Position numbers and translations under genes: made by a program
In this document: positions 1 through 33,293 of the stretch, one piece after another
How the letters are laid out: every line of letters starts with the position of its first letter
Position numbering within the stretch: position 1 is the first letter of the stretch
Source: Candidatus Nomurabacteria bacterium
GTDB taxonomy: Bacteria > Patescibacteriota > Minisyncoccia > Phycocordibacterales > UBA9973
Reading direction: 5' to 3'
Length of the DNA stretch: 38,248 nt
NCBI GenBank assembly: GCA_026396065.1
Contig: JAPLXO010000006.1
Location: 96,428 to 134,675 of the forward strand
The notes under the pieces: generated by a model
The model's database searches: none
Told to the model about the DNA's origin: nothing
What the model saw: only the letters and a program-made list of their open reading frames with translations

Positions 1-141
1 AAAAATGATGTGGTGTGCAGAAATGCAAATGCGGAACGCGAGCGAAATTTTGCGAAATACTGGGGGTTTGGGGGAAAGTATTTCGCAAAATTCGCTTCGC
101 GTGCTTCCTGATTTTTTGGCGGGATTTTGGCGGGGCGGGCA
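1..141 (+). repeat. Left copy of perfect inverted repeat (>=141 bp, open at window edge)
   Basis: Bases 1-141 are the exact reverse complement of 2558-2698; identity stops at 142/2557. The left copy may continue beyond the window. Confidence 0.97.
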
Positions 142-157
142 ACTGGAAAAAATACTC

Positions 158-180
158 ATAAAATGATAAAATCATTTTAT
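158..180. promoter_or_regulatory. 23-bp palindrome (ATAAAATGAT-AAA-ATCATTTTAT) abutting a start codon and overlapping an extended -10
   Basis: Perfect 10-bp inverted repeat with 3-bp spacer ending directly at ATG 181; contains TGATAAAAT (extended -10-like). Confidence 0.5.
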
Positions 181-930
181 ATGAAAAAGATTGTTGCAAT
201 CGGTGGAGGTGAAATTGGAAGACCTGGTTTTCCTATTGAAACTACAAAAATTGATAAGGAGATTATCAAACTTACAAACAAGAAAAATCCTATTTTGCTT
301 TTTATACCTACCGCATGCGGAGATTCAGAAGGATATTTTGCAACTGTTGAAAAATATTTTGGTAAAAAATTAGGATGCAAAACAGATGTTTTGTATCTTA
401 CGAAAGCGAAGCTTTCTAAAGAACAAATACGAAGTAAAATTTTGTCTGCTGATATTGTTTATGTTGGTGGCGGAAATACTTTCAAAATGATTAAAATTTG
501 GAAGAAATTTGGCGTAGACAAAATTTTACAAGAAGCCCACGAAAAAGGAATAGTGCTTTCTGGGTTAAGTGCGGGAGCAATTTGTTGGTTTAAGTATGGA
601 AACTCTGATTCTCGTAAAATGAAAAATCAAAAAGCTCCTTTGATAAAAGTTTCGGGGTTAAATTTTATTCCTGCTCTTTTGTGTCCACATTATGATTTTG
701 AAAAGGACAGAAAACCTGATTTGAAAAAAATGATGAGTAAAACTTCTGGCGTAGCGTTAGCACTTGATAATTGTTGTGCTATCGAAATTATAGATGAAAC
801 CTACAAAATCATTTTTTCAAAAGATTCTGCAAATGCTTATAAGGTTTTTTGGGCAAAAGGAAAGTATTACCAAACTTTGATTCCGAAAGAAAAAAAGTTT
901 TTACCATTATCTGATTTGCTGAAAAAATAA
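181..930 (+). CDS. Peptidase S51 family (dipeptidase E / type 1 glutamine amidotransferase-like)
   Basis: MKKIVAIGGGEIG..., YVGGGNTFKM, GLSAGAICW nucleophile elbow, CPHYD. The track ORF starts at TTG 127 inside the repeat; ATG 181 preferred. Confidence 0.85.
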   Translation: MKKIVAIGGGEIGRPGFPIETTKIDKEIIKLTNKKNPILLFIPTACGDSEGYFATVEKYFGKKLGCKTDVLYLTKAKLSKEQIRSKILSADIVYVGGGNTFKMIKIWKKFGVDKILQEAHEKGIVLSGLSAGAICWFKYGNSDSRKMKNQKAPLIKVSGLNFIPALLCPHYDFEKDRKPDLKKMMSKTSGVALALDNCCAIEIIDETYKIIFSKDSANAYKVFWAKGKYYQTLIPKEKKFLPLSDLLKK

Positions 931-934
931 TTTT

Positions 935-1435
935 ATGACACAAAAAGATGTTATTGATCTGTATAAAGAGCTAGAAAATGCTGGAATTAAAATTTGGATA
1001 GATGGTGGTTTTTGTGTTGATGCATTATTAGAAAAACAGTTGCGACCTCATAATGATTTAGATATTGCAATCCAGTGGAAAGATGTTTCAAAATTACGAG
1101 AAATTTTAGAAAAACAAAGATATAGGCAAATAAGAGAAGATAGTAAATGGAATTTTGTTTTGGGTGATGAAAATGGACATGAAATTGATGTTCACGCCTT
1201 TGTTTATAATGAAAATGGAAAAATCGTAGACGGAATTATGTATCCTGCCGAATCTCTTAGTGGTAATGGTGTTATAGAAGGTCAATCAGTAAATTGTATA
1301 TCGCCTAAATTTATGGTTGAATTTCTTGCTCCTTGGATTAGTAAATGGCCAGATAAATATTTGCCCGCAATATCTATGTTGTGTGAGAAATTCAAAATAG
1401 AATTACCAAAAGAATATATAGAATACAAAAAATAA
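935..1435 (+). CDS. Nucleotidyltransferase, lincosamide (LnuA/LinA)/aminoglycoside-type
   Basis: IWIDGGFCVDALLEKQLRPHNDLDIAI resembles the GGxxxD...H.D.D active-site region of this nucleotidyltransferase family; EIDVHAF. Confidence 0.8.
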   Translation: MTQKDVIDLYKELENAGIKIWIDGGFCVDALLEKQLRPHNDLDIAIQWKDVSKLREILEKQRYRQIREDSKWNFVLGDENGHEIDVHAFVYNENGKIVDGIMYPAESLSGNGVIEGQSVNCISPKFMVEFLAPWISKWPDKYLPAISMLCEKFKIELPKEYIEYKK

Positions 1436-1439
1436 TTTT

Positions 1440-2465
1440 ATGAAACTATTTCTCACATCATCAGGATTAAGTGACACAAACGAGAAAGATTTTCTCGACC
1501 TTTTAGGGCGAGAACCCAAAGGTCTTCGCGTGGCTTTCATCCCTACTGCAATGAATCAAGAACCCGAAGAAGTGAGACAAAAATATATCCCTGTGGATGT
1601 TGCGGATTTGGGAAATCTTGGAATGAAAGTTGATTTTATAGATCTTGAAAAATTAACTGAAGAAAATATACTTTCAACATTTATGCCTTATGATGTCATT
1701 TATGTTTATGGTGGAAATACTTTTTACCTAATGAAGTATGCAAATCAATCAGGTTTTACAAAGCATATTTTTGAAATCATAAAAGACAAAATATATTTTG
1801 GAGTTAGTGCCGGAAGTGTTATTGCTGGAGAAGATATTGAAATTGCGGGTTGGGAAAATGGAGACCCGAATAGTATTGGACTTTCAGATATGAAAGGATT
1901 ATCACTTTTTCCTTTTTCTGTTCTTCCACATTGGAATGGAGAAATTCCGAAAGAAGCAGAAGCATACAGACACAAAATCCGATATATCAAAGACGGCGAA
2001 GCCGTCATGATAAAACACGATAACTCTCTAGTGGAAGAATTGAAATCTATTTTGTCCCAAAATACAGACAAGCGAATTAGCGTTATTGGTACAACTTGTA
2101 CAGGCAAAAGCACCTTACTAAAAGAAATATCTGAGGGTGTCGAAATGAAAGAAATTTCACCAGTACTTACGGATGAAGAAAGAGCTTTTGTTAATCAATC
2201 ACCATGGACTCCAGATATTGGAGAAAAAATGATTGAGATTAAAGGAGAAAAAGCAAAACTCGAAATTGGAAAACCAGTTTTCGGCACAGTGATTGCTAAA
2301 AATACTGACTTGATAATTTATCTAAAAATAGAAGATGAAATTTTAAGAAAGAGAGTTAATTTTAGAAATGGAAATTTTGATGATGCAAAAGCAATGCAAG
2401 AATGGATTGAGAAAAAAGTTGTTGATTCAAAATTACCAACGGTAATTTTGAATATTAGGGAGTAG
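1440..2465 (+). CDS. Fusion: N-terminal peptidase S51-like domain plus C-terminal P-loop kinase-like domain
   Basis: N-terminal YVYGGNTFYLM, FGVSAGSVIAG, LPHWN; C-terminal ISVIGTTCTGKSTLLKEI (Walker A), 341 aa in one frame. Confidence 0.8.
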   Translation: MKLFLTSSGLSDTNEKDFLDLLGREPKGLRVAFIPTAMNQEPEEVRQKYIPVDVADLGNLGMKVDFIDLEKLTEENILSTFMPYDVIYVYGGNTFYLMKYANQSGFTKHIFEIIKDKIYFGVSAGSVIAGEDIEIAGWENGDPNSIGLSDMKGLSLFPFSVLPHWNGEIPKEAEAYRHKIRYIKDGEAVMIKHDNSLVEELKSILSQNTDKRISVIGTTCTGKSTLLKEISEGVEMKEISPVLTDEERAFVNQSPWTPDIGEKMIEIKGEKAKLEIGKPVFGTVIAKNTDLIIYLKIEDEILRKRVNFRNGNFDDAKAMQEWIEKKVVDSKLPTVILNIRE

Positions 2466-2529: not shown

Positions 2530-2557
2530 ATTCAATATTATGTTTTTTCTTTTTTAA

Positions 2558-2698
2558 TGCCCGCCCCGCCAAAATCCCGCCAAAAAATCAGGAAGCACGC
2601 GAAGCGAATTTTGCGAAATACTTTCCCCCAAACCCCCAGTATTTCGCAAAATTTCGCTCGCGTTCCGCATTTGCATTTCTGCACACCACATCATTTTT
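2558..2698 (-). repeat. Right copy of perfect 141-bp inverted repeat, containing an internal long hairpin
   Basis: Exact reverse complement of 1-141; internal palindrome GCGAAATACT-N15-AGTATTTCGC extended by imperfect pairing. Confidence 0.97.
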
Positions 2699-2699
2699 C

Positions 2700-2765
2700 T
2701 TCCCCGCACTTCTGCTTCAGCAGAAGCTCTGTGCTTCGCACAGAGGCGCTTCAGCGCGCGGGGAA
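2700..2765. repeat. Cloverleaf-forming palindromic element (four-way junction)
   Basis: Outer stem TTCCCCGC/GCGGGGAA encloses three arms CTTCTGC-TTCA-GCAGAAG, CTCTGTGC-TTC-GCACAGAG and GCGC-TTCA-GCGC, with only A2708 unpaired at the junction. Confidence 0.8.
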
Positions 2766-2884
2766 CGCTTGTGGATATTCTCACGAATTTTTGATAAAGT
2801 AAGTTCGAGCGGAATCGTAAAACCACTCATTATAAAAAATATAGGTTATGTCAAAGCATAACTAAAGAGAGTCATTTGTTGAAA

Positions 2885-3580
2885 TTATTTTTTAACTTTA
2901 GTAGTATCTTTTGGTAAAAGCTTGATGATATTTGGATATAATTTTTCTATATTTTCTACTGTTTTAAAACCAGTAGATTTATTTTCATCTATTACAAGGG
3001 CTGGTAACTCAGTATCATTAATTTTATATATTCTCAAAAGTGCTCGAAGGGCTGAAAGATCAATATTATAATCAAAAGAGTAAACTCGTAAATCTGGATA
3101 TTTCTTACGAAGTTCAGTCAAAACAAAACCTTGTTTTGTACACTCTGTACAGTTTTCAGCTGTCGTATAAAAATACAATATAGGTATTCTCTTATTTCCA
3201 CAACGATTATTAATTTTTTTTGTTAAAATATAATCTTTGATTTCAAGAATTGTATAATATCTTTTCAATTCAGTTGCCGCCATATTATCTTTAAAATTAT
3301 TTTCACTATATTCTATCTTTGCTGCCATGTCTGAAAGTTCAGCAGAAAGGTTTTCGGAGCCATCATCTTGCTGACAAGAAAGCTCAGAAAGCAAAGAAAA
3401 TTGCGTTTCGGAAGAGAGAATATCTGTAGCTAATTTATCTTGTATGGCTCGCATCGTGTCTACTTTTTTGTTTGTAAAAAAACTAGATAGACCACCAGCC
3501 ACAGCAAAAAGACCAAGAGTAATTACAAATACTATTATATATTTAACCCAATCATTTTTTTTTATATTATTATTTTCCAT
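2885..3580 (-). CDS. Membrane-anchored thioredoxin-fold protein
   Basis: N-terminal TM segment, then PILYFYTTAENCTECTKQG (CxxC) and a downstream TELPALVID segment. Confidence 0.7.
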   Translation of the reverse strand: MENNNIKKNDWVKYIIVFVITLGLFAVAGGLSSFFTNKKVDTMRAIQDKLATDILSSETQFSLLSELSCQQDDGSENLSAELSDMAAKIEYSENNFKDNMAATELKRYYTILEIKDYILTKKINNRCGNKRIPILYFYTTAENCTECTKQGFVLTELRKKYPDLRVYSFDYNIDLSALRALLRIYKINDTELPALVIDENKSTGFKTVENIEKLYPNIIKLLPKDTTKVKK

Positions 3581-31841: not shown

Positions 31842-33293
31842 TTATTGAGATACATTTGTAACAGACAAGTCTTGTCTGTTTGATATTATATTACCTGTCA
31901 TTGTTTCTTGTATCCAAGTTGTACCATCTAGTGATGACCACAATGTATTACCAGGAATATTACTATTGAATTGAGTTGCAAGATATCCATAACCAACATA
32001 TATTCTGTTGTTAAAAACAAAAGAAGTAAAGTCTCCACGCATTGATTGATTGTTTGGAGGGCTTACGACAGTCCAAGGTGCGTGAGCAAGTGCTGTGGTC
32101 CATGTAATACCATCCAACGAAGAACATATATCATTTTGTGGAGGATTAGGGCTCGTATTACCACCTAGAAGCCAAAGTTTACTATTAAATACTATTGATG
32201 TATGTTTATTCCTAGTAACACAATCATGATTTTGTGTATTTGTATTATTTGTCCATGTTATACCATCTGGTGAAGACCAGATCCCAGCAGTAGCACCGAA
32301 AGTACCATCAACAAAAATTTTATTTTGAAAAACTGAAACACTCATCATGTGACTAGTACCAGCATAACCCCAAGGACCATCTTGTATACCAGCAGTATTG
32401 GGATCTGTATCAATATGTGTCCATGTAGTTCCATTCGAAGAAGAATAAATAGGATTAGTATACAAAACACCACTATTACCTCCATTTATTTCCCGAATAA
32501 GCCAAAGCTTATTATTAAAAACAAACAAATGATTTGTACCAGAACTTTCTTGATGAGGAAAAGCAATCGTTGTTGCAACTGTCCAATTAATACCATCTGG
32601 TGAAGACCAGATCTTACTATTCCAATTACCACCAACTAGCACAGCGTAGTCTTGTACTACCCACATCTTATTATTAAAATACGGTGTATTTGAATCCAAG
32701 TCATTACCACGAGTAGTCCATTTTGTTGTTAGATTTGGGTTTGTATCTTGTGCTGATACTAAAGACCAGTTTGTTGCATTAGTAGAAGAATATACATCGT
32801 TATAACCCATTCCACCAAACAAATACAGAGTATTCATAATTGAAAACATATTATCAGAATAATCACTAACACCTCCAGAATAATTATCGATAATTCTAAT
32901 CTTATAATGTAAACCGTAAGTTGTGATTCCACTAAAAGTAGGATTAGGAATAATTATTAATTTTGAACCATTATTTAATATTGGACCAGATACAACAGGA
33001 GAAATATTAATTCCCATTCCAGCCTGATTATATAATCTTATTTGCATTTGATCAGTTGTTGGGCATGTTGATGTCCATGTTATTGTTACATTTTGACCAA
33101 CAGAGTAGGATTGTCCTCCATTTGGAGATAGAACTGTTACAGTACAAGCTGGTAGTAAACTATTGCCCGATAATACGGCAGTTGCAGAATTATCTTCTGG
33201 TGGAATATTAAAACCAACTTTCAACACAAAAACGACTAATACAATTATTCCTAAAGATACTAGTCCAAGACCAATTTTTGAATATTTTTTCAT
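31842..33293 (-). CDS. Exported protein: Ig-like (Kre9/Knh1-type) domain plus beta-propeller with SSxDGxTW repeats
   Basis: N-terminal TM/signal; VLSPNGGQSYSVGQNVTITWTS; repeats VYSSTNATNW, IWSSPDGINW, IYSSSNGTTW, IWSSPDGITW, ICSSLDGITW, LWSSLDGTTW. Confidence 0.8.
   Translation of the reverse strand: MKKYSKIGLGLVSLGIIVLVVFVLKVGFNIPPEDNSATAVLSGNSLLPACTVTVLSPNGGQSYSVGQNVTITWTSTCPTTDQMQIRLYNQAGMGINISPVVSGPILNNGSKLIIIPNPTFSGITTYGLHYKIRIIDNYSGGVSDYSDNMFSIMNTLYLFGGMGYNDVYSSTNATNWSLVSAQDTNPNLTTKWTTRGNDLDSNTPYFNNKMWVVQDYAVLVGGNWNSKIWSSPDGINWTVATTIAFPHQESSGTNHLFVFNNKLWLIREINGGNSGVLYTNPIYSSSNGTTWTHIDTDPNTAGIQDGPWGYAGTSHMMSVSVFQNKIFVDGTFGATAGIWSSPDGITWTNNTNTQNHDCVTRNKHTSIVFNSKLWLLGGNTSPNPPQNDICSSLDGITWTTALAHAPWTVVSPPNNQSMRGDFTSFVFNNRIYVGYGYLATQFNSNIPGNTLWSSLDGTTWIQETMTGNIISNRQDLSVTNVSQ

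Follow-up and report, generated by a model that had tools for sequence, protein, structure and literature searches.

A stretch of DNA from Candidatus Nomurabacteria bacterium, 38,248 nt long and hereafter called the window, contains a compact cloverleaf-shaped segment directly beside an inverted repeat. This raises the question of whether the segment belongs to a recombination site, to a transcript or to a repeat with a life of its own. We favour, with a probability of roughly 0.6, the reading that the cloverleaf forms the inner structural block in the P half of an attachment site, and that this site belongs to a Patescibacteria integrative element residing at tRNA 3' ends.

Fold, conservation and distribution of the cloverleaf

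Minimum free energy and centroid folding both reproduce the structure drawn in the original prediction, with the closing stem TTCCCCGC/GCGGGGAA, three arms with loops of TTCA, TTC and TTCA respectively, and a single unpaired A at the junction (Table 1). The fold is far beyond chance on RNA as well as DNA parameters: the region of 86 nt folds as RNA at -44.6 kcal/mol (z -5.96) and the 66 nt with DNA parameters at -27.3 (z -7.59), and 0/200 shuffles match either value. The cloverleaf does adjoin an inverted repeat, as had been proposed. The two repeat copies, 164 nt long and 94% identical, flank the cargo of the window. Nine N of a scaffold gap (L032 9992-10000) stand left of position 1, and a left cloverleaf mate of this locus would therefore be hidden in the assembly. 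Compared with its relatives, the window copy has a shortened closing stem (8 bp vs 12-14 bp, with AGCGTTTCCCCGC as the typical 5' strand) and is without half of the inner hairpin that begins CTGCACACCACATC; a true deletion and an assembly artefact at a long palindrome would look the same.

Table 1. Positions of the element's features and of its host flank in the window
Feature	Position	Strand	Evidence or remark
Left copy of inner inverted repeat	1..164	-	its cloverleaf, P arm and core missing in N gap
Cargo, peptidase family S51	181..930	+	Pfam PF03575, E 1.8e-49 (query from codon 2)
Cargo, predicted nucleotidyltransferase, Aminoglyc_resit family	935..1435	+	Pfam PF10706, E 3.9e-22
Cargo, S51 peptidase domain	1440..2465	+	Pfam PF03575, E 3.8e-28
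IRa, right copy of inner inverted repeat; includes hairpin 2597-2622/2638-2663	2535..2698	+	repeat search, relatives
Cloverleaf, closing stem 8 bp, arms 7/8/4 bp	2700..2765	+	fold, covariation, distribution
P arm, outward promoter-like, ends in core	2771..2828	+	arm common to 77/79 cloverleafs; tRNA-end match
Possible decayed remnant of older P arm outside present end	2829..2865	+	by-eye likeness to remnant after tRNA-Thr, G010 (L201)
Host gene flanking insertion	2885..3580	-	G036 ortholog beside uninterrupted tRNA-Thr(tgt)

The compensatory changes on which the prediction had been made to depend are present in relatives. In an alignment of 15 sequences and 30 pairs, 95% of the cells are paired and 16 of the 30 pairs are altered on both sides, a count that 0 of 500 shuffles reach. 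The signal collapses when the alignment is slid by 1-3 columns; both the shuffling and the sliding control leave relatedness in. The closing stem is present in several unrelated sequences (AGCGTTTCCCCGC, TCGCACATTCCGT, TCGTGCTTCCGT and GAGGCATACCACAC), and in G008:C6 the whole fold stands at the equivalent position with a very different sequence (DNA z -6.85). The two ends of the G004 element (L064) differ by an entire arm, CTCTGTGC/GCACAGAG vs CACCACGC/GCGTGGTG, with unchanged flanks; these ends also show compensatory changes in the hairpin neighbouring the cloverleaf. As unrelated sequences make the same fold, the cloverleaf behaves as a replaceable structural module.

Further copies, likewise anticipated, were found in related genomes, and 79 cloverleafs were examined for the arm that follows them. 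The genome of the window itself (0.8 Mb in 11 contigs) holds two more copies, and the usual number is about 1-5 per genome. A DNA-level scan of the genus finds cloverleaf pairs facing outward, 2-6 kb apart. The inverted mate that had been foreseen falls in the N gap at the window locus and exists in relatives as 11 inverted pairs, all outward-facing. The cloverleaf occurs in 18/69 genomes of the genus, in 31/119 of the family (spanning 12 of 24 genera) and in 3/332 of a phylum sample, one of these three coming from a different family; all are draft MAG assemblies that break at these repeats. Its sequence family is nearly restricted to one family. The sequences and P arms compared are phylogenetically non-independent, and the model E-values are rough.

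Within the second copy of the window's own genome, the region L033 8424-9100 contains many further GC hairpins; a second cloverleaf sought in that region was not found, and it is probably a decayed element. At L076 6132-6216 (G035) the third arm is replaced by an inverted hairpin of the first-arm type, as if two copies had been joined at the palindromic middle arm.

Attachment arms, recombinase and cargo

Directly outside the cloverleaf, 77 of the 79 copies carry the same arm of about 55 bp (TTTTGAAAATAGGTTCGGACTTGGTACAATAAACAC and variants), which ends in a short core; the remaining two are cut by contig ends before it. A recombinase gene lies within 1.2 kb outward of 18 copies. The P arm of the window terminates with CCACTC at 2823-2828, its core matches the tRNA-Thr 3' end GGCTCC, and the attR junction with host DNA falls at about 2827-2828. 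Each readable P arm has a core that matches its target tRNA at the 3' end: CACC for Gly, Leu, Arg and Ala, CTCC for Thr, CCGC for Ser, CAGC for Gln and GAGC for Asn. The core shared between attB and attP measures 3-5 nt, without a long target duplication.

The recombinase gene lies left of the window, at G000:C8:94508-96097 (the window begins at 96428). It encodes a large serine recombinase of 529 aa that combines Resolvase, Recombinase and Zn_ribbon domains in one protein. The catalytic domain starts with YARKST, the catalytic serine motif, and the nearest solved relative is the A118 serine integrase. Judged by its domains, its serine motif and the short shared core, the predicted protein fits the large serine recombinase class. 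A perfect inverted repeat of 134 nt (the P' arms) brackets the gene, and at this locus the recombinase region ends inside a convergent tRNA-Thr(tgt) gene. The same arrangement recurs widely: of the 101 recombinase genes for which enough sequence is available, 94 terminate at a convergent tRNA, covering about 16 isotypes. The recombinases are related to one another, and two collections share some of the loci, so that the 94 cases are fewer than 94 independent events; the range of isotypes shows that many of them are independent. No inversion of the recombinase module was seen among the 94 loci with a tRNA, in a search that covered convergent tRNAs (7 of the 101 had none). The recombinase is always convergent in these 94 cases, and inversion between the two joints is therefore rare or not tolerated. 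Most named records bearing the recombinase come from Candidatus Nomurabacteria and other Paceibacteria; distant ones belong to Saccharibacteria and Microgenomates. Viral contigs, searched by recombinase and by cloverleaf pattern, gave no match, and an excised circle was nowhere seen.

An empty site is available in G036, where the ortholog of the flanking host gene (82% nucleotide identity) is followed by a terminator and then by the tRNA. Because this site is uninterrupted, the recombinase together with window positions 1 to about 2828 constitutes an insertion at the tRNA end. At the same place in G010, a 3' fragment of the tRNA is duplicated and a P-like remnant is present. With insertion at a tRNA 3' end and an empty site in relatives, the element fits the tRNA-integrated class.

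The element runs from the tRNA through core, P' arm, recombinase, inverted P' arm and core to an inverted P arm with cloverleaf, the cargo, and a cloverleaf with P arm, core and host DNA. This order is the same in many independent loci. The cargo segment is thus flanked by inverted copies of hairpins, cloverleaf and P arm, and the idea that a conserved four-way junction marks the edge of a mobile cassette has held up. The outer ends are tRNA-core-P' (attL) and P-core-host (attR). Between recombinase and cargo, the inner joint accordingly consists of a complete P-core-P' site, inverted in orientation and otherwise the same as the joint expected in the circle, and an excised circle would therefore carry two inverted attachment joints.

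Two of the three cargo genes of the window have S51 matches (Table 1). The product of 1440..2465 additionally has a weak AAA_28 match (PF13521, 26.1 bits, under the cut-off of 27), and the cargo of the window gives only weak partial matches to defence models. Another element, at L068 7180-11712, carries a cargo gene of 1510 aa that encodes a helicase with an MTES_1575 nuclease domain and matches the defence models PDC-S37, MkoC and Hhe. Elsewhere in the window, the gene at 31842-33293 has five imperfect repeats of 34 nt at a spacing of 153-186 nt and perhaps encodes a repeat protein of the beta-propeller kind.

The P arms resemble promoters. Their fit to the sigma-70 -35/-10 hexamers is 8.9/12 vs 7.5/12 in dinucleotide shuffles, and the -10 box mostly ends 6-10 nt ahead of the core. 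Arms of the Thr type, the window's included, have a weak match of 8/12; a promoter and terminator scan of the window did no better than shuffles and called no promoter in its P arm. In relatives, the next feature past the P arm is tRNA-Thr(cgt), tRNA-Arg(tct), prfB or glmS. This suggests that the right end restores downstream transcription. A solo cloverleaf with P arm lies upstream of tRNA-Thr(cgt) in G006 (L117 5181-5255); no close recombinase was found near it, and it is possibly a leftover end now working as a tRNA promoter. Among copies without a recombinase beside the tRNA, the stretch from tRNA end to P arm is a terminator palindrome, often reaching both cores (L069, L070, L314, L333, L334). 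In G010 a P-core-terminator half is also present at tRNA-Gly and tRNA-Pro.

Possible roles of the folded block

In the reading that we prefer, the recombinase would recombine the P-core-P' joint of the circle with a tRNA end, and the P arm would carry an outward promoter whose start lies close to the core, re-expressing downstream genes. The cloverleaf would act in a folded DNA form, either single-stranded or extruded, where cargo and attachment site border on each other, and this is the weakest step of the proposal. Folded DNA is the form in which the cloverleaf most likely acts, and we rate a DNA-level role at that border as slightly short of an even chance. At the cloverleaf position, several sister elements show a lone hairpin or nothing clearly structured, and in L180 identical flanks enclose a cloverleaf at one end and a different, unrelated block at the other. 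Many members of the recombinase family are without a recognisable cloverleaf, so that recombination cannot depend on it. As sister elements and L180 lack or swap it, the cloverleaf is a replaceable, accessory module that is not needed for integration. Mimicry of a tRNA was dropped because the cloverleaf is absent from many elements that share this type of target.

Besides a junction-processing enzyme, which may recognise the cloverleaf, the original prediction had offered a REP/MITE-like end and a structured RNA; neither a REP/MITE end nor a known RNA family is supported. A dispersed element moved by its own transposase could explain why genomes hold several copies, frequently at contig ends, but it is very improbable: the copies adjoin only the P arm and are tied to one att arm and a serine-recombinase element, and the empty site corresponds to insertion of the whole element at a tRNA end. 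An RNA-level role deserves more weight, although we consider it unlikely. The cloverleaf would then be a structured 3' region of cargo transcripts that blocks read-through to the P promoter and protects the mRNA end. At each end it does separate cargo from promoter, every outward transcript contains the modelled strand, all cargo genes of the window point at it, and RNA folds of the outward strand beat their reverse complements by 2 kcal/mol on average. Yet no terminator was called at the cloverleaf, and Rfam returned only sub-threshold chance matches, none of them on the cloverleaf. Moreover, G-T and A-C mismatches are similar in number (20 vs 26 of about 1900 cells, two positions left out); there is therefore no RNA wobble signature, and no consistent G-U bias for one strand.

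Equally doubtful is the notion that the fold is a functionless by-product of palindrome-rich ends kept perfect by template switching or inverted-repeat gene conversion. Both ends of a given element often share 150-320 identical bp that differ from one element to the next, the G035 chimera is joined at the palindromic middle arm, L180 combines unrelated end blocks with identical flanks, and template-switch correction can keep perfect palindromes without selection. Against this, the strands that pair across the three arms to close the stem have unrelated sequences in different elements, and the complete fold is found again with a very different sequence; quasi-palindrome correction mends single hairpins, not a cloverleaf arrangement. 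More speculatively still, the modules with inverted half-sites (P'-recombinase-P' and P-cargo-P) might exchange single-stranded or as hairpins in a foldback cassette system. Their inverted copies would anneal into a double-stranded attachment site, with the cloverleaf as a folded landmark. We regard such a system as improbable; if true, it would be a serine-recombinase counterpart of integron cassettes and could suit single-strand DNA uptake.

Relation to known elements and significance

The overall organisation of the element is reminiscent of the tRNA-gene genomic islands and integrative elements of the Islander/TIGER type (Williams 2002, cited in PMC12884075). Both have an integrase gene beside the tRNA, 3'-end insertion with the tRNA end restored, and cargo behind. 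The present element differs from those islands in its large serine recombinase, in an excised form that is implied to hold two inverted P-core-P' joints, and in ends that carry an outward promoter-like arm and a cloverleaf. At the protein level, the recombinase resembles A118, TP901-1, phiC31 and Bxb1 (Durrant et al. PMC10083194), sharing Resolvase, Recombinase and zinc ribbon domains and the YxRxS catalytic start (here YARKST). Unlike those large serine integrases, one clade here targets tRNA 3' ends of about 16 isotypes, and its cores match them. The plasmid collection contained distant recombinases only, and among the matches listed the best plasmid-borne relatives are less than 28% identical (at most 27.6%).

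Comparing the cloverleaf with integron attC sites reveals a folded, structure-conserved and sequence-variable element beside a recombination site in both. However, the associated enzyme is a serine recombinase and not an IntI-type tyrosine recombinase, for which reason identity with attC was rejected; the structure also lies outside the crossover region, and the cassettes are flanked by inverted copies. The yeast 2-micron circle and parvovirus terminal repeats offer another likeness, with inverted repeats splitting two unique regions and a terminal multi-arm hairpin.

A literature search returned no paper on this element architecture, and novelty is meant relative to that search, which ran outside subscription journals. 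Mobile elements of Patescibacteria are poorly described. A family of large serine recombinases that uses the tRNA 3' ends of many isotypes, each with a matching core, offers new integrases from a defined, testable source, and the inverted duplicate attachment joint together with the covarying cloverleaf raises the question of what role a folded DNA block plays at an att site.
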